64,000 bases of DNA from Coemansia sp. RSA 487 (taxonomy: Eukaryota > Kickxellomycota > Kickxellomycetes > Kickxellales > Kickxellaceae): assembly GCA_027577595.1 (NCBI GenBank), contig JANBRJ010000014.1, positions 62,001-126,000 of the forward strand, in the 5' to 3' direction. The notes under the pieces are model-generated. The model was not told the DNA's origin. It saw only the letters and a list, made by a program, of their open reading frames with translations, and did not search any database. Positions within the stretch are counted from its first letter, which is position 1. Each line of letters starts with the position of its first letter. Made by a program: the position numbers and the translations under genes. This document shows, piece by piece, positions 1 through 18,919 of the stretch.

Positions 1-170
1 AGAATCGAAATCTGGTTTCGCGTATCTTCAAAGTTAACCTGTGGATCAAACCACTGTAAAAAATATCCACCAATCAAGCTTTTTCCATCTGTATTTTTTG
101 TTTTCAATGTTCAATTTAATTTATTGTTTGTTTACTGTATTTCCTCAATTCAATTAATGCATTTTGAAAA

Positions 171-2321
171 ATGTCCGCGCTACCACGACCTTTAAACGGC
201 AATGAAAGAGCCACCCGTGGCATTTATCATACTGGAATTCAGCAGCTCCTAGCCCCGTCGTTTGGAACAGCCATTAATTTAGGCACATGCGCCAACGTAC
301 CATATGACACTACCGACGACCCGAGCCAAGTGAAACGGCATATTGAAAACGGCCTTCTGCTCATTAATCATGTCAAATATGTTACTCCACTTCATCTTAT
401 TGAGCAGCTGGGAGTACTCGATCTTTATATAAAGTTCGACGACGCAGCCAAGGGAAGTGGTTCCTTAGCTGACAACTCTGACGATACAGGCATTTTTGCT
501 GAGCTTGCTTCAGCAGCACCTAGACGCTCAGGAGAACATCTTATATATCCGGCCAAAACGGCTAACCGAATGGTAGAGGCTTGCATTTCAGACTCCTCCG
601 GCAAAAGTATCTGCTCTTCCAAAACAGCACTAGCTGCTCATTTCAAGTGGCTTTTCGAAAGAATGCGGAATGCAGACAAATCCAAGTGGCCAGGTATCCA
701 GCAGCAATCATCACTTGTGTATGACGATCTACAGTGCAAGCCGATCCCGGGGTCAAATACTAAGCCCGATGGGCTCTTCTTCCTTAGACACTGTGGGTCC
801 ACAGCTCTACAGGCAGCACAAATGGTTTTGGTAGCTAAACCTGTTTCTTTAGACGACGGACTACTTCCTGCGAATATAGTTGGAGAGCTCGGAGATTATG
901 TGCTCCACATGTGGACAGAGCAGTTTACACGAATATACGTTCCAATATTACTGCTGCATGGAGAAAAACTATCATTGGTCGTATTCATGAGGAGTGGGGT
1001 GGTGCTGGTTGCTTGTCTCGGGCCTGTAATATCCTCCAATTCAAGGACCGAACTTGTCATTATCAAACGAACGCTCAGGTGCTTGTGGTTCTTTGCAACG
1101 TTAGGATCTTCTAAATTTGGACATGTCTGTGACATTCCAAGCGAATATCTTGGGATTAGATTTGCCACGCCCAATAATGACGGCTTCACCAACATCAGCC
1201 TTGCGCTTAGCACAACTGGAAAGAGAATAGCAGGCATGCGCGAGTGGATTCAGGGCCCTGTTCGGCTTTTTGGCCGCGTTTCGTATTTGTATCGAGTGAC
1301 ATTTGAGAGCAAGGATGCTGTGCTAAAGTTCACTTGGATGTCTGTCCATCAGCTTCCCGAAGGCGCTGTATATCAATTACTAAACGAACGCTGCAAAGCC
1401 TTTATACCAGAGGTCTATGCGAGCGGCATTGTCGAGAAAGACTGGCTTGGCTACCAACTTGTGTTTCAGATTACCGAATATTCAGGTATCCCAATAGACC
1501 TGTGTATTCGAGAATACAAGCACGGCGGCCGAACCCAGAGCTACATGGAAGAAACCATTTGCAACACACTCAAGGAATCGTCAAACTGCGTTGCAAAGGC
1601 ATATCTGGCTGGTATACTGCATCGTGACATTTCTTACAGGAACATTTTGATCAAGGATGGCAAGACCAAAATCGTAAGCTGGGGACTTTCCAGGCTGCAC
1701 AGAGATATCGGAATAAAACATATAAAGAGTGCTGAGCGTACATGGCGCTTTGACTTGGAAACCGTACTCAGGGAGGAGCCGAAATATGACGCGCTTGCTG
1801 ATATGAATTTTTCGATGAGTATCCAGGTACTTCTTGGAACACTATCGCGCAATCTGACGCATGACCTGGAGTCCATATTTTATATTGCACTTTATGCGCT
1901 GACATTAGTCGAAGCGACTGTCGATTCCTACAAATACACGCCTATTGGATTCCACTTTGTCGGAAACCACCCGACTGCTGCCGCAAGAGTCGGCTGCTTA
2001 TCTAGCGCCAATTCATATCGCCAATGCTTTGGAGTATCAAAGTGCCTTCCAGCCACAGCCATGGTTTTAAACTCGATGCATAGGTTTTTGTTTTTCAAAA
2101 ATGGGGTCTTTATTGCTGGGGCCTTTTTGACTGACCCCAATAAATGGCATCTTCCCGATATTGATGAGGCTAGCGGCTTTATGAATGCAAAGCTGCTACA
2201 GCCAGAAAGAATCGGCGATTTCCAAGCACCACTTGGTCGGGAGATTGCTGAAATGAGAATAACATCAGTAAATGTTGATAACAGTACCAACAACGGTATT
2301 AAAAAAGTAGGAATAGTTTGA
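171..2321 (+). CDS. FunK1-type protein kinase-like protein with altered DFG
   Basis: A 716-residue protein of the fungus-specific FunK1 kinase-like family. The C-terminal half carries the recognisable part: a catalytic-loop motif HRDISYRNILI (H484, D486, N491) and later THDLESIFYIALYAL, the conserved HDLES segment of FunK1 proteins. At the usual metal-binding DFG/DFD position the sequence reads SWG (residues 503-505), so the key Asp is replaced by Ser. That argues for weak or no phosphotransfer, or an unusual metal mode. The N-terminal half is long and typical of the family in having no named domain. The start is the first ATG after an AT-rich leader. FunK1 proteins are often in expanded, fast-evolving sets in fungi; cellular role unknown. 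Family assignment is good, activity uncertain. Confidence 0.8.
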   Translation: MSALPRPLNGNERATRGIYHTGIQQLLAPSFGTAINLGTCANVPYDTTDDPSQVKRHIENGLLLINHVKYVTPLHLIEQLGVLDLYIKFDDAAKGSGSLADNSDDTGIFAELASAAPRRSGEHLIYPAKTANRMVEACISDSSGKSICSSKTALAAHFKWLFERMRNADKSKWPGIQQQSSLVYDDLQCKPIPGSNTKPDGLFFLRHCGSTALQAAQMVLVAKPVSLDDGLLPANIVGELGDYVLHMWTEQFTRIYVPILLLHGEKLSLVVFMRSGVVLVACLGPVISSNSRTELVIIKRTLRCLWFFATLGSSKFGHVCDIPSEYLGIRFATPNNDGFTNISLALSTTGKRIAGMREWIQGPVRLFGRVSYLYRVTFESKDAVLKFTWMSVHQLPEGAVYQLLNERCKAFIPEVYASGIVEKDWLGYQLVFQITEYSGIPIDLCIREYKHGGRTQSYMEETICNTLKESSNCVAKAYLAGILHRDISYRNILIKDGKTKIVSWGLSRLHRDIGIKHIKSAERTWRFDLETVLREEPKYDALADMNFSMSIQVLLGTLSRNLTHDLESIFYIALYALTLVEATVDSYKYTPIGFHFVGNHPTAAARVGCLSSANSYRQCFGVSKCLPATAMVLNSMHRFLFFKNGVFIAGAFLTDPNKWHLPDIDEASGFMNAKLLQPERIGDFQAPLGREIAEMRITSVNVDNSTNNGIKKVGIV

Positions 2322-3709: not shown

Positions 3710-4477
3710 CTACTCGACATATTTGGCAATTTCTGGCGAATCCCACGAGTAAAACATGCCCGATATTTCAATTGGTGCTCTCAATGCCAGCTTGACAATA
3801 GCATGCGCGGGTTTTTCAGGAGGCAATAATCCACCAGTAGCATGAAGTTCTTTGAGCTTTGCATGCTCTGCTGGATGCATTGCTTCCTCGCCAGCGTCTC
3901 TGATAACAGTTTGTATATCAGTATCCACAGTGCCCGGCCCAATAGCTAGAGTGACAATGTTAGGCTCCTCAACAGCAATACACGCAGTGATCATATTAAG
4001 AGCTGCCTTACTAGCACAGTATGCAGACCAGCCTTGCATTGCAATGGTTGCAGCACCTGAACTGACATTAATTACACAGCCTTTGTTTTTCTGGAGCACA
4101 GGAACCAGCTTCTGAGTCAATGCAACAATCGCTGTTGTATTGACTTCAAGGCAATACCTCCATTGCTCCATGTCCATATTGGCAATCTTGGCAAGTGGCT
4201 CTATTATACCACTATTGTTGATCAGTGCACAAAGCTCCATTCGACTTTGTTCCAAGCACTGGACAATGCTATCAATGTCTTCAGGCTTTGTTATGTCAGC
4301 TGTGCACGGAATAAAAGCTGACTGTTCATATTCTGCTGCAAACATATCTTGCAGCTTATTCAGAGTCTCGTGTGATCGTGCTACAGCAATAACAGAGACA
4401 CCATGCTTCAAGAACTCTTTGCAGATTGCAAGCCCAATACCCCGTGATGCTCCAGTGACAATAGCTAGATGCCTCAT
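3710..4477 (-). CDS. Short-chain dehydrogenase/reductase, tandem copy A
   Basis: A 255-residue classical SDR, close in layout to fungal sepiapterin reductase-like/benzil reductase-like proteins (the yeast IRC24 group). The NAD(P) motif TGASRGIGLAI is at the N-terminus and the catalytic pair is in SAYCASKAALN (Tyr-x3-Lys) with the Ser in NVSSGAA. The usual NNAG is NNSG here. It is a tandem duplicate of the gene at 4998-5765 with the same length and near-identical C-terminal third. Its codons are more AT-rich than those of copy B, which suggests relaxed selection or drift after duplication. Substrate cannot be read from sequence; NADPH preference is likely from the Arg in the first loop. Confidence 0.88.
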   Translation of the reverse strand: MRHLAIVTGASRGIGLAICKEFLKHGVSVIAVARSHETLNKLQDMFAAEYEQSAFIPCTADITKPEDIDSIVQCLEQSRMELCALINNSGIIEPLAKIANMDMEQWRYCLEVNTTAIVALTQKLVPVLQKNKGCVINVSSGAATIAMQGWSAYCASKAALNMITACIAVEEPNIVTLAIGPGTVDTDIQTVIRDAGEEAMHPAEHAKLKELHATGGLLPPEKPAHAIVKLALRAPIEISGMFYSWDSPEIAKYVE

Positions 4478-4997
4478 ATCTTTGATTTCTTATGAGATTG
4501 TTTAATAGATAATGTGAAAATACAATGCACAAGAAGAGCGGGTGATGGAGACATGGGAAAAGGTGGAAAGTCTAGGCTAATTTATAGGCAAGATGGCTTT
4601 TATCTTAACTTGCTGGATATGCTACATTAGCTATCACAGCTGTGCTATTAGTGTGTTGGATAATAATAAATTGGAAGATATAAAGAAACATGATCTAAAT
4701 AAAACATTGTCACAATGTCTCTAATCTTTTTCAATACAACCACCAACATAATATTTATAGATTGGCCACATTGTGTTTGCTTTCTGCAGTTGTTCCATTA
4801 ATTTTTTGGTAGAATGAAGTAAACCACCTGGACAAGAAAAAGCTTCTTGTTTCCTAATTATTGTCCAAACTAGAATTGTGCACAATAAGCTATACCTTTT
4901 TCCATGCCGATATGAAATCAAATAATAGTGAACTTTATTGAAACGCAGATTGTGGTCAAAACGTGGAGAGAAAAAGAAATACCACTGAGACCAAATT
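4478..4997. other. Spacer between tandem SDR genes
   Basis: About 520 AT-rich bases. It should hold the promoter of copy A's left-running transcript near 4478-4700 and the 3' end of copy B near 4998. A 98-codon open frame on the minus strand runs into copy B but has no family resemblance. No repeat or element was recognised. Confidence 0.5.
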
Positions 4998-5765
4998 CTA
5001 TTTGACATATTTGGCAATCTCTGGCGAATCCCACGAGTAAAACTTGCCCGATATTTCCTTTGGTGCTCTCAATGCCAGCTTGACAATGGTATGCGCGGGT
5101 TTTTCAGGAGGCAATAGTCCACCAGTAGTATGAAGTTCTTTGAACTTTGTATGCTCTGCTGGATGCATTGCTTCCTCGCCAGAGTCTCTGATAATAGTTT
5201 GCATGCCAGTATCAACAACACCGGGTCTGATAGCCAGGGCCACTACATCCGGCTCTTCAGTGGCAAGCGACTCGGTAACCATGTTAAGCGCTGCCTTGCT
5301 AGCACAGTACGCGGACCAGCCATGGTACGCATGAGACGCAGCACCCGAACTGATATTGACCACGCACCCCTTGTTTTTCCGGAGCGCAGGCATCAGTTTC
5401 TGAGTCAGCGCAACAACCGACGTCACATTGACTTCAAAGTGCTGCCTCCACTGATCAATGTTCAGATCGGCGATCTTAGCAAGCGGTTTAAGGACACCAG
5501 CGTTGTTGACAAGGGCACAAAGCTCTAGTCCGTTTTGTTCCAAGCACTGGTTGATACTATCAATGTCCTCGGGTTTTGTGACGTCGGCGGTGCATGGTAT
5601 AAACGCTGACTGACCGTACTTTGCCACAAGTGTCTCTTGCAGTTTGGTCAGGGTTTCGTGCGATCGCGCTACAGCGATAACAGAAACACCGTGTTCCAGG
5701 AACCTTTTGCTAATGGCAAGCCCAATACCTTGCGATGCTCCAGTGACAATAGCTACACGCGTCAT
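4998..5765 (-). CDS. Short-chain dehydrogenase/reductase, tandem copy B
   Basis: A 255-residue classical SDR, paralogue of the gene at 3710-4477. Cofactor motif TGASQGIGLAIS, intact NNAG, catalytic Ser in NISSGAAS and SAYCASKAALN with Tyr and Lys. It ends DSPEIAKYVK, as copy A ends DSPEIAKYVE. It keeps the standard family residues and a GC-richer codon pattern, so it is the better candidate for the ancestral, functionally constrained copy. Likely a cytosolic NADPH-dependent carbonyl reductase for small ketones or diketones, by analogy with the yeast IRC24 group; the substrate is a guess. Confidence 0.9.
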   Translation of the reverse strand: MTRVAIVTGASQGIGLAISKRFLEHGVSVIAVARSHETLTKLQETLVAKYGQSAFIPCTADVTKPEDIDSINQCLEQNGLELCALVNNAGVLKPLAKIADLNIDQWRQHFEVNVTSVVALTQKLMPALRKNKGCVVNISSGAASHAYHGWSAYCASKAALNMVTESLATEEPDVVALAIRPGVVDTGMQTIIRDSGEEAMHPAEHTKFKELHTTGGLLPPEKPAHTIVKLALRAPKEISGKFYSWDSPEIAKYVK

Positions 5766-6038
5766 ATCCGCTAGTTTAAAGAAAAAGAAAATATATCCAC
5801 TGTAGAAATAAAGTGTGCGTTAAAGAATAAAAAGGTAAAAGCAAAGGAGATAATCGTCTTTAGCTGTTCGTTTTTCTTCTGGTCTTTTTTTACCACCAAA
5901 GCCTTATCCGAAAAAAATGACCAATCAAAACCTAAAAGTCGGTCTGTCGATTAAAGATCAAGGGAGCAGTAATATTACCACTGCATGTAAAATACAATGA
6001 TGTCATGTATGAGTTGTGTGATGTCATGTAAAAAGTAA

Positions 6039-7076: not shown

Positions 7077-9341
7077 ATGGCGGACGAAAGCAGTACAGCA
7101 GAAACAAAAGATGGGTTCCTTGGCATCCGTGTCATTACCTCAGGCAGCCTACCACCATCAAAGCAGGCAGCGGGGGAATCAGACTCGACGATGGAAGACA
7201 GCAGCAGCAGCGACGACCAGGGACAGTGCATAGAGAGCTCAGAAGCGATTACATTTGACAACGTCACCATCGAGTATGGCCCGACGTTCCAGACGCCAGG
7301 CAGCCGGCGAACAAAGTACTTTACGTCGCTAACAATGCAAATCGACCGCGGGCACCATTGCTTGGTGGTTGGCGCCAGCGCCGAGCGGCGACGCTCATTC
7401 AAGGCGGTACTTCTTGGATCCTCAGGCTCACAAGTAACCAAGGGCACGCTACGCAGCCCTAAACCACACGTAGGGATCCTATACATCGACAGCAGGCCAT
7501 ACGTCAAATCAGGCAGCTCGCTGTGGGAGCTGCTTATATTTCCGCACGCCAAAATGCAATCTGTGCGGCGCGGGATCAGCGAGCGCCACTTGCTAGCGAT
7601 CCTGCGGTTCATGGACTTTGAGTACCTTTTGGAGCACGTCGGCGACGACTGGGGCAAGGTAGTTGACTGGGCCAAGGTGCTGAAGAAGCACGAGCTGCTG
7701 GCAGTTTCTGTGTGTCGAATGATATACCATGCACCGGCGTTTGCGCTGGTGGACGATGCTCTGGCGCTGCTTGGATCAACGCAGGTGCGCCAGCTGTTTG
7801 CGGCCGCCAAGTACCACCACGTGACGCTGCTAGTGATGGCCGAGTACGATCCGTTCGACGCCGCCGCTGCGCGTGTCTCGCGACGCTGGTCGTCTGTCGA
7901 TTCACTCGACAGTAACGAGGACAGCAGTGCATTTATGACGTGTATCGGGGAATTTGCGCGTGCGCTGCGGCTAAACAAAGACGGCGCAAAGCAAAGCGAG
8001 ATGCCATGGTCATACTGTTTGTTCGGATACGGATCAGCGGAGCGGCCTGCATTCGATGTGACTGAGGAGCGTGCGTGGCTGTGGAACTCTCTTTACGCAT
8101 CGCTTGCGTCGGAGGAAAGCTACGTGTCGGGGTTACAGCGCAGAACGTCGACGCTTAGCCAATGCTCCACTACAGAGCGTCACTGGCTGATGACGCCCGA
8201 TACGCCCACTGCATCCACCATATTCAGCAGCGAATCAACCGTTTCCCGCAGACAGTCGCGCGTCGTGTCGCCAGCCCTGACCGCTCGCTCAAGTGTCTCG
8301 GATTTCTCTACGGGTGCTGCTTCTTCTTCGCTAAGGCGGAAATTATCATCCGACTTGGCGCCGTCCAGATCTCGCATAACCATCGATGGCGCATTATCTG
8401 GATTCGTCTCCCCGCCGTTGCTTTCTGCAAACACTGCCAATAACAGGCCAATGTCTGCCTTGGGTGCATTGGAGAAGAAACAGCCACTGGTGTCGGTCAC
8501 CCCCACGCTGTCATCGACACTGTCGACCAGCGTTGCTGGATCCGCCATCTCCGAACTCTCTGCTGACGAACCTATTGTCGAAGAAGCAAACGGTGTTCAG
8601 CCTGAAGAAGCAAAGGAGGAAGCCCAAGAGTCTGCAGTTGATAACGATCCGACCAGCAATGACGACGACGAACCCCAAGTAGAAGCGACATTAGAAGCTC
8701 CGCTGCCTGAAACCAAAAAAGCTGACCCTGAAACGGAATTCAGCCAACCAGAGAAGAGCGACACGAACAAGCCCAAGCCTCTAGTCGAAAAGGCAAATGA
8801 AAACGCAAATTGCTTGGTATCAGAACCTGTGGCAACGCAAGCACCTGTGCGCAACCCGTATGGACGGCCAAAGAGGAGTTACGCGCGGCCACCACGCTCA
8901 CACTTTGGGAAAACAGCAGCAGAAATAGGGCAGCACTCGACCTCTTCTGGGCCCTCATTTATCCCCCCGGCTTCTTCAAGCAGCACCGACCAGCCCAATG
9001 ACACCACCGCCAGTCGGCCCTTTAGTCGGAACGACAAGGGCTCTCCAAGCCTGCGTACTGCTGCCGTCCAACAGCAACATTCATCTTCGCGGGCGTATGC
9101 ACGTGCATCGCCCAAAAAGAATGCATCTAGCGTTGGCTCATCGCGCATTCCAAGGCCCCCGGTTTCCGGATCCGGATCCAGCAGCAAAAGCAGCAAGAGT
9201 GATAACAGCGAAGGCATCGTGTCCACCCCTATGTCCAATAGCATCCAGCAGCAAGGTGCCGAGACTTTGCCATCCATTTCCTTGCTATCCATGTCCCCAT
9301 CTTCTATTGATGAACTAGCCGACTCTCTAGGCAATCTTTGA
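7077..9341 (+). CDS. Degenerate ABCD-type ATPase domain fused to a disordered Ser-rich tail
   Basis: A 754-residue protein. Residues about 57-260 align by eye along their length with the nucleotide-binding domain of peroxisomal ABCD transporters: ITFDNVTIEYG, GILYIDSRPYV (usual YIPQRPY), SLWELLIFP, ISERHLLAIL, VVDWAKVL, MIYHAPAFALVDDALAL (usual YHRPKYALLDECTSA). Every catalytic motif is changed. Walker A GPNGCGKSS reads GASAERRRS (99-107), the Q-loop Gln is lost, the LSGGEKQR signature reads LKKHELLA (202-209), Walker B Glu is Asp227, and the H-loop His is Glu256. ATP hydrolysis is not expected. No transmembrane domain is present. Residues about 270-754 are Ser/Pro/Glu-rich and disordered, with RRxS-type basophilic kinase sites and an SxIP-like SRIPRPP (689-695). 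Probably a pseudo-ATPase scaffold. Function unknown. Confidence 0.85.
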   Translation: MADESSTAETKDGFLGIRVITSGSLPPSKQAAGESDSTMEDSSSSDDQGQCIESSEAITFDNVTIEYGPTFQTPGSRRTKYFTSLTMQIDRGHHCLVVGASAERRRSFKAVLLGSSGSQVTKGTLRSPKPHVGILYIDSRPYVKSGSSLWELLIFPHAKMQSVRRGISERHLLAILRFMDFEYLLEHVGDDWGKVVDWAKVLKKHELLAVSVCRMIYHAPAFALVDDALALLGSTQVRQLFAAAKYHHVTLLVMAEYDPFDAAAARVSRRWSSVDSLDSNEDSSAFMTCIGEFARALRLNKDGAKQSEMPWSYCLFGYGSAERPAFDVTEERAWLWNSLYASLASEESYVSGLQRRTSTLSQCSTTERHWLMTPDTPTASTIFSSESTVSRRQSRVVSPALTARSSVSDFSTGAASSSLRRKLSSDLAPSRSRITIDGALSGFVSPPLLSANTANNRPMSALGALEKKQPLVSVTPTLSSTLSTSVAGSAISELSADEPIVEEANGVQPEEAKEEAQESAVDNDPTSNDDDEPQVEATLEAPLPETKKADPETEFSQPEKSDTNKPKPLVEKANENANCLVSEPVATQAPVRNPYGRPKRSYARPPRSHFGKTAAEIGQHSTSSGPSFIPPASSSSTDQPNDTTASRPFSRNDKGSPSLRTAAVQQQHSSSRAYARASPKKNASSVGSSRIPRPPVSGSGSSSKSSKSDNSEGIVSTPMSNSIQQQGAETLPSISLLSMSPSSIDELADSLGNL

Positions 9342-17409: not shown

Positions 17410-18118
17410 TATATAGTAGTGAAAAAGAATATTTAAAGTGTTTGAAGGAAAGGAGCTGTTGGAGGATAATGGAGAAAAGAAAAAGGTCTGTTTATCCTTG
17501 AACTGCAGACTTGTTTTTAACACTACTGTCGCGTGATGCAATCGGGTTTCGTTGGCATATGAAAAAAGAAAAAAACTGCCAAAATCTCCGATAATTGATA
17601 ATTGTGTATCAAAGCATGGAAGCACGGGCCAATAGTCGGCTCCACCAGAGATCCGGTGGTGTATTTCCACATGTAATTTAATTTCCCGTTGATCCGCAAA
17701 TATTCCTTTACCACCGTAAATGTAACTTGAGGAAATAAAGGCATGACAGTAAACCAGTTAAAGAATGCAAATGGCTACATCTTTTTATATTGCTTTTTAC
17801 TTTATTGTATGTCAGTGAAGTGAGAATGTATAAATTTTTTTGGGGGGGAGTAGGAAAATGGCGGTGGTGGTTTCCTTTCTTAGTCAAGGAACATTACGTT
17901 GGTGGCAAAATATCAGTATAAAATGTCATCGGATCTTGTTTGCAATATGTGTATACTTTGAAGGAATTGGTTTAAAAATAATCATTGCTGAGCGGAAAAC
18001 ATTCTACTGAATACACATTCCAAGCATCTTTTTCTTTTTCAATTTTCGTCCACTAGTGTATTATTTCCAAAAGCAGCTCTCTCGCACCAGGAAAACTTTT
18101 TGAATATAAATACGAAAA
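17410..18118. other. Divergent promoter region
   Basis: About 700 AT-rich bases between the left-running GST gene and the right-running pacifastin-like gene. A run of G near 17842-17848 and poly-T tracts are visible. Nothing coding recognised. Confidence 0.45.
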
Positions 18119-18919
18119 ATGCATTTCACATTACCATCGCTTATGCTCTTTGTTTTGCTTACCTTGACCACCATAGCTAACGGTGTGCCGTTGCAAAGCA
18201 ACAAAACGGCAACATTGCCAATAAATGGCATGCATAGTGGGCATAGTGGCGATGGGCCCATATGGTTTACACGTATGCCAAACGAGGACGACGAGGACAT
18301 GCACAGCACCAACTATCTGTACTGTCGGATGGCGCACAATGGTCGCAGTCGATGGACAGAGGTAACCAACACAGAGTCCAAGGGCGGGGAGGAGCCCAAA
18401 TGCAGCAGCTGCTTCTGTTTGCCCGACACCCAGCGCATCGGATGTGTTCGCACGACATGCCCAGCAGATCAAGGAACCACAAGCAGTCCACCACCAAGCG
18501 TCAAAAAGCTTCACAGGCGGATCCCAAGCCAGCCCCAAGATCAATCACACGAAGTCAGGCGGTTCGGATCATTTGACGAGTGTGTGAAAGCGCATGGTGG
18601 CAAAGCATCGTTCAAGGACGATTGCAACTCGTGTGTGTGTTCAAGTGAAGGCTCGGTCATTTGCACGCTAATGCTGTGTCCGCCAAAGCCATCGGCCACC
18701 AGGACAGAGCCAGTTGGGCCAACAAAATCCATAACCAACGTCGCTGCCATACCAACAACATCGCATTCCAATGAGTACAACAGCTACGAGCAGTGCGTCC
18801 ATGCAAATGGCGGGAGTGCTACTTTCAAACGCATATGCAACGACTGTTGGTGCCTGAAAGGAGGTGCGGTCGGATGCACAAGGAAATTCTGTCCATATCA
18901 CACTCCCGCACTGGCTTGA
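18119..18919 (+). CDS. Secreted protein with three pacifastin-like inhibitor domains
   Basis: A 266-residue secreted protein: signal peptide of about 22 residues (MHFTLPSLMLFVLLTLTTIANG), then three six-cysteine modules. Modules 2 and 3 fit the pacifastin pattern C-x(n)-CNxCxC-x3-G-x3-CT-x3-C, with n 13 rather than 9-12. Module 2: C155, C169, C172, C174, C182, C187. Module 3: C226, C240, C243, C245, C253, C258. Module 1 (C69 to C114) is more divergent. By analogy with insect inhibitors the reactive site follows the fifth Cys: CTRKFC in module 3 (Arg255, trypsin-type), CTLMLC in module 2 (Leu184, chymotrypsin-type), CVRTTC in module 1 (Arg111). Dibasic sites (LHRR, EVRR) precede module 2 and could be Kex2 sites. 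Likely an extracellular serine-protease inhibitor. Confidence 0.82.
   Translation: MHFTLPSLMLFVLLTLTTIANGVPLQSNKTATLPINGMHSGHSGDGPIWFTRMPNEDDEDMHSTNYLYCRMAHNGRSRWTEVTNTESKGGEEPKCSSCFCLPDTQRIGCVRTTCPADQGTTSSPPPSVKKLHRRIPSQPQDQSHEVRRFGSFDECVKAHGGKASFKDDCNSCVCSSEGSVICTLMLCPPKPSATRTEPVGPTKSITNVAAIPTTSHSNEYNSYEQCVHANGGSATFKRICNDCWCLKGGAVGCTRKFCPYHTPALA

Follow-up and report, generated by a model that had tools for sequence, protein, structure and literature searches.

What might a fungal protein do with an ABC domain that has lost both its ATP site and its membrane-spanning half? The question is raised by a gene of Coemansia sp. RSA 487 at 7077-9341 (+) of the window, the stretch of 64,000 nucleotides that was analysed (C14:62001-126000; the genome comprises 17.8 Mb in 184 contigs). 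The gene encodes a pseudo-ABC-D protein with an SxIP tail in a single open frame of 754 codons plus stop. A sequence-only reading had described this frame as intact, and the ORF indeed begins with ATG and contains zero internal stops. The protein is identical to record P0002 (Coemansia sp. RSA 986) at 753 of 754 positions. No second copy of the gene was found in a search of its own genome, where the other matches at E<=0.001 were two ABC-D transporters only.

A nucleotide-binding domain of the ABC-D type

Sequence matches, the NCBIfam model TIGR00954, HMM-HMM comparison and the predicted fold place a pseudo nucleotide-binding domain (NBD) of the ABC-D type at residues 47-322 (7215-8042, +). 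In the PDB, the protein matched plant ABCD1 (E 2e-17) and human ABCD1 (E 4e-17), with residues 81-254 as the best stretch, and ABCD3 with E 5e-11. TIGR00954 matched with E 1.4e-23; the score of 83.3 bits lies below the curated cut-off of 918.9, as does that of the genome's intact Pxa1-like protein (781). The intact ABC-D proteins matched in the own genome were PX2 (C15, Pxa2-like, E 4.3e-18) and PX1 (C4, Pxa1-like, E 7.2e-15), both intact transporters with full motifs, and PX2 scored slightly above PX1 (56.6 vs 49.7 bits with the window NBD). No Pfam family was detected in the window protein at E<=1.

The HMM-HMM comparison that had been proposed as a check came out for an ABC-D NBD, and fold comparison of the structure model recovered an ABC fold; the two comparisons together rule out that the domain has no ABC fold. 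The likeness to ABC-D NBDs noticed earlier at residues 57-260 was confirmed, but its extent had been drawn too narrowly, as the fold comparison runs to about residue 322 (model 6-281, equal to residues 47-322). The best-conserved stretch of the domain in the family alignment is the helical subdomain at residues 146-202, GSSLWELLIFPH...DDWGKVVDWAKVL (7512-7682, +). In ABC transporters, the face of the helical subdomain meets the membrane domain. The window protein contains a single NBD and its remainder is predicted to be disordered.

The ABC_membrane_2 domain is absent from the chain (Pfam, E<=1), and the gene lies outside the genomic places with PF06472. When the genome was searched for the ABC-D membrane domain, four places were found, PX1, PX2, a protein on C38 and C14:186915-187553(-), none of them near the window gene. 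As the sequence-only reading had stated, no transmembrane half precedes the NBD: the four upstream ORFs examined encode a kinase, a lyase and two short-chain dehydrogenases (SDRs), and PF06472 was found in none of the tested upstream ORFs. The N-termini of the orthologues are alike in the alignment, with M1 in 30/30 and G13 in 26/26 letters. The conserved N-terminal stretch GFLGIRVITS, residues 13-22 (7113-7142, +), further keeps L15 and G16 in 24/26 letters each, and a strand is predicted at residues 18-22 in the structure model. A missed upstream membrane exon is ruled out by the like N-termini, the content of the upstream ORFs and the location of the PF06472 places.

Among the neighbouring genes, the one at 168-2315 (+) encodes a fungal-type protein kinase (PF17667), and two adjacent SDR genes lie at 3716-4489 and 5004-5819 (-). 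One family record, P0011 (Coemansia biformis), is deposited as a pseudo-NBD fused to an SDR that is 51% identical to the second SDR of the window; this fusion is perhaps a gene-model chimera. Farther downstream, the gene at 18110-18913 (+) encodes pacifastin-type protease inhibitor repeats (PF05375) in two stretches, a family known mainly from arthropods.

Loss of the ATP site across the family

Protein searches retrieved at least 39 family records (P0002-P0034 and P0035-P0040) from Coemansia, Kickxella and Martensiomyces, all Kickxellales by record names; some are partial or come from close strains. P0041, found in the same search as P0035-P0040, is a true ABC-D protein. No pseudo-NBD was among the matches listed for Linderina, Dipsacomyces, Mycoemilia, Spiromyces, Ramicandelaber and Furculomyces in a shared-word search over a capped set of candidates, which does not prove absence, and intact ABC-D proteins were seen in all six. 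Most family records (P0002-P0040) bear the transporter names pxa1, pxa2 or ABC sub-family D member 1-3, and no membrane domain was detected in those scanned. In viral contigs, seven stretches fitted the search pattern and none was a real relative.

The ATP-site motifs were counted in an alignment of 30 of the 39 family records with 30 intact ABC-D rows. P0001 was used in place of P0002, and P0021, P0024 (odd N-terminus), P0031-P0034 and P0038-P0040 were left out. The intact rows comprised 27 of 28 sampled among 120 listed ABC-D proteins plus PX1, PX2 and P0041; P0088 was dropped because its Walker A lay outside the search pattern. Since the intact rows were picked by Walker A, the Walker A columns are biased on the intact side.

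At the Walker A place, residues 99-107 (GASAERRRS; 7371-7397, +), the Lys is replaced by Arg, the first Gly is kept and the second and third are gone. Across the family, 27 of 30 members have R in the Lys column and the other 3 have A; of the P-loop glycines, the first is present in 27/30 and the second and third in 0/30, and the Ser that follows the Lys is gone in 30/30. The Q-loop place, residues 138-142 (DSRPY; 7488-7502, +), carries Ser instead of Gln, and no member has Gln here (S 11, A 7, G 7, R 2, F 1, C 1, T 1). The place of the LSGGEKQ signature is at residues 202-208 (LKKHELL; 7680-7700, +), and of its LSGG neither the Ser nor the first Gly occurs in any of the 30 members, while the second Gly occurs in 12. 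The Walker B strand FALVDD, residues 222-227 (7740-7757, +), keeps its Asp (D226, 30/30), and Asp replaces the Glu next to it; this catalytic column reads D 13, gap 8, E 6 and A 3. The H-loop His is replaced at residues 255-258 (AEYD; 7839-7850, +), the column being D 15, E 7, A 4, H 3 and S 1. None of the members that keep E (6/30) or H (3/30) has the Walker A Lys.

The earlier statement that all catalytic motifs are lost therefore holds for the Walker A Lys, the Q-loop Gln, the signature, the catalytic Glu (now Asp) and the H-loop His of the window protein, but not for D226 and the first P-loop Gly. The expectation that the losses would be conserved across species was borne out by the 30-member alignment. 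Patterns for Walker A, Q-loop, signature and Walker B-Glu, applied to whole sequences, matched 0/39 family records vs 118, 119, 81 and 118 of the 120 listed intact ABC-D proteins, and the three-letter SHR pattern occurred anywhere in 4/39 vs 117/120. An orthologue with intact Walker A, which would have spoken against the sequence-only reading, was not found among the 39 records, of which six stop short of that place (P0031, P0032, P0034, P0038-P0040) and two lack a recognisable one (P0024, P0033).

Among the positions that are well conserved in intact ABC-D proteins, 29 are identical and conserved in the family and 102 are not; 27 more positions are conserved in the family alone. The 27 family-only and 29 shared positions indicate a domain that has been reshaped and constrained rather than randomly wrecked. 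In a maximum-likelihood tree, 26 family rows grouped together on a long stem, separated from all intact rows by a branch with 100/100 support; this tree was further computed without P0030 and P0035-P0037, contained only one Pxa2-type row from the own genome, and drew a program warning about long branches.

Mean identity over 28 pairs of 8 species was 57.1% for the domain (helical and Walker B part), 57.0% for the adjoining linker (about residues 344-424) and 31.4% for the outer tail, vs 85.4% for the same domain part of the intact Pxa1-type transporter (28 pairs, 8 species). With two doubtful records added (10 hand-picked species, 45 pairs), the values were 56.5, 56.3 and 28.7%, and 85.4% for the Pxa1-type NBD. 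The 8-species rerun omits P0011 (SDR fusion) and P0027 (probably cut), and the outer tail figure rose from 28.7% to 31.4% because these two had pulled it down. By these identities, the window gene evolves faster than its intact Pxa1 cousin, with domain and linker well held.

Taken together, a fold that is kept by prediction and catalytic residues that are lost across orthologues characterize a pseudoenzyme. The domain is very probably a conserved non-catalytic ABC-D NBD, and we infer that the window protein has no ATPase activity. The sequence-only reading thereby holds in its observations and for the most part in how it interpreted them.

The disordered tail and EB1

Residues 359-742 have pLDDT values mostly of 30-45 in the full-length model and are thus predicted to be disordered. 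Within this divergent tail, four conserved islands were found in 33 records: LQRRTSTLSQCSTTERHWL, RRQSRVVSPALTARSSVSD, SRIPRPP and a C-terminal DELxxxLxNL helix. The first, at residues 353-371 (8133-8189, +), is near-invariant and contains RRxS; eleven of its columns (L353, R355, S358, S361, Q362, C363, T365, T366, E367, R368, W370) are invariant in 33/33 records. The RRxS presumably resembles basophilic kinase sites. The second near-invariant motif, residues 391-409 (8247-8303, +), has eight columns invariant in 33/33 (R391, S398, P399, L401, S405, S406, S408, D409). At the very end, the helix IDELADSLGNL, residues 744-754 (9306-9338, +), is predicted for residues 744-753 with pLDDT 73-76; D745 is kept in 24/26, E746 in 24/27 and L751 in 24/25 letters, and P0003, P0004 and P0022 lack the helix.

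The SxIP-type motif SRIPRPP reported earlier for the tail is present in the low-pLDDT region at residues 689-695 (9141-9161, +), and it is conserved. By letters, S689 is kept in 27/29, R690 in 29/29, I691 in 27/29 and P692 in 28/30, followed by R693 in 27/30, P694 in 26/28 and P695 in 25/28. Strict SRIP occurred in 31/34 tails of >=150 residues vs 0.46 expected from shuffled tails. The loose pattern [ST]x[IL]P occurred in 32/34 tails vs 17.8 expected from shuffling; for that reason, only strict SRIP counts as strong evidence. This count covers 34 of the 39 records, after dropping four tails of <150 aa and P0037, which has no anchor motif, and the 34 are not independent because close strains are among them. 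SRIP is missing in P0011, whose end is fused to the SDR, and in two Kickxella records, P0027 and P0032; all three look like cut or fused gene models.

An EB1 gene is present in the own genome on C77 (PF03271, E 1.3e-14). Its ORF of 313 aa aligns with human EB3 across the CH and EBH parts with E 4e-44, and the stretch EKERDFYFSKLR is identical in the two proteins. In PMC8441410, SxIP motifs in disordered tails are described as binding the EBH domain and recruiting the fungal EB1, Bim1, and Duo1 of the Dam1 complex is given as an example with an alignment-conserved SxIP. The window protein likewise has a conserved SxIP in a region predicted to be disordered, in an organism whose EB1 has an EBH domain. 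On this sequence evidence, the tail probably binds EB1.

The explanation that we favour, with moderate confidence, is a lineage-specific pseudo-ATPase scaffold that has kept the ABC fold, lost the membrane half and the ATP site, and docks EB1 by its SxIP tail. An extra peroxisomal ABC-D copy would have lost its membrane half and ATP site in the ancestor of Coemansia, Kickxella and Martensiomyces; the ABC fold would have been retained as a binding module, as the predicted fold and the conserved loss suggest, and the long disordered tail gained. Docking of SRIPRPP on the EBH domain of EB1 would bring the protein to growing microtubule ends, a step suggested by the motif, its conservation and the presence of EB1, and the Ser/Thr-rich motifs beside the domain may act as a phosphorylation switch. 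The scaffold could also be real and SRIPRPP serve another partner, for instance an SH3 or WW protein, instead of EB1. Conservation does reach into RPP, but S-R-I-P, the SxIP core, is kept about as strictly or more, and an EB1 carrying the EBH motif is encoded in the genome; we regard such a partner as rather unlikely.

Candidate membrane partners and known systems

If the window protein is a microtubule-tip scaffold, its pseudo-NBD may grip a partner by the helical subdomain (residues 146-202), in the way NBDs grip ABC-D membrane domains. It could then link microtubule tips to a membrane that bears ABC-D proteins, most likely the peroxisomal one, and Pxa1/Pxa2 or the membrane-only protein of C14 would be the obvious candidates. 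A peroxisomal ABC-D membrane domain as this partner is a tentative suggestion, to which we attach a low probability.

The membrane-only gene, C14:186231-188675 (-) (L009:5232-7676), has an intact 815-codon frame that encodes a long Ser/Gln-rich N-terminus and an ABC-D membrane domain (PF06472, E 8e-34) and then stops. About 160 bases past this stop lies the end of a convergent SET/MYND gene; thus, the membrane-only gene has no attached NBD and no room for an NBD exon. The window protein could be the detached NBD of this protein, the two meeting in trans as a split, non-transporting ABC-D unit. The two genes share a 251-kb contig, with 115 kb between them. The membrane-only protein matches TIGR00954 at positions 11-285 and in a second stretch, and the window protein at 430-636, so that by sequence the two complement each other along a single ABC-D model. 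Within their own genome, PX2 is the best-scoring match of both (82.8 vs 73.9 bits with PX1 for the membrane-only protein). Extra ABC-D genes of unknown function outside the Pxa1/Pxa2 groups are mentioned for early-diverging fungi in PMC2848647 and PMC4692070, and they are a plausible source. Against a split unit, the nearest PDB relative of the membrane part is ABCD3 (E 5.2e-22; ABCD1 about 1e-8), whereas that of the NBD is ABCD1; the membrane-only protein keeps only 48/123 near-invariant membrane-domain positions; and the common contig, about 1.4% of the assembly, may be chance. The 48/123 is by itself no mark of a dead membrane domain, since the C38 protein keeps 42. That protein, at L007:583-2655 (-), is a third ABC-D-like transporter of 690 aa with intact motifs. 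Overall, we consider a split unit improbable. Still less credence is given to its fullest form, an ABC-D half transporter cut in two whose structural halves would rejoin in trans without transport or ATP, while EB1 at growing microtubule ends would hold the membrane (peroxisome) by the SxIP tail.

Similarly improbable is a regulator that would bind nucleotide without hydrolysing it and, resembling the degenerate site of asymmetric ABC exporters, pair with the Pxa1 or Pxa2 NBD. The invariant Walker B Asp (30/30), the first P-loop Gly (27/30) and the Arg that replaces the Walker A Lys (27/30) are consistent with such a role, but all 30 members lack two of the three P-loop Gly, the Ser that follows the Lys, the signature's Ser and first Gly and the Q-loop Gln, and degenerate sites usually retain most such residues. 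PMC7756269 describes, for degenerate sites, changes of Lys to Arg and ATP that stays tightly bound without being hydrolysed. A decaying pseudogene, for which the lost catalytic residues and the divergence faster than that of intact Pxa1 might be cited, is ruled out for the family, as the sequence-only reading had argued from the frame, by 754 open codons, 39 related records and the conservation of domain and linear motifs, leaving it a negligible probability.

ABC domains are textbook ATP engines. If the scaffold reading is true, a fungal clade keeps an ABC domain purely as a scaffold with a microtubule-tip tag, and a stand-alone ABC domain joins the pseudoenzymes; this would connect an ABC-D relative with the cytoskeleton in a testable way. 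Annotation is also corrected, as the records named pxa1, pxa2 or ABC sub-family D cannot be transporters on their own. In the literature, as far as titles and abstracts with partial coverage reach, we found neither an NBD-only ABC-D protein in Kickxellales nor an SxIP motif in an ABC protein.

With peroxisomal ABC-D half transporters (Pxa1/Pxa2, ABCD1-3; TIGR00954), the window protein shares NBD sequence and predicted fold; unlike them, it lacks the membrane half, the Walker A Lys, Q-loop Gln, signature Ser-Gly, catalytic Glu and H-loop His, and it adds the long tail predicted to be disordered. SxIP plus-end trackers such as Duo1 of the Dam1 complex (PMC8441410) have a conserved SxIP in a disordered C-terminal region like the window protein, whose folded part, in contrast, is an ABC pseudo-NBD and whose binding to EB1 is predicted. 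Soluble fungal ABC proteins (ABC-E, ABC-F, Caf16, YDR061W; PMC2848647) also have an NBD without a membrane domain, but ABC-E and ABC-F carry two NBDs per chain and Caf16 and YDR061W fall outside subfamilies A-G, whereas the window protein has a single ABC-D-derived NBD without ATP site. Degenerate ABC exporter sites share with it the lost catalytic residues and the Arg for the Walker A Lys, yet they belong to transporters that have another, working site (PMC7756269), and the window domain stands alone. A pseudoenzyme combined with a linear motif is of a known kind; the pairing of an ABC-D pseudo-NBD and a conserved SxIP tail appears to be new.
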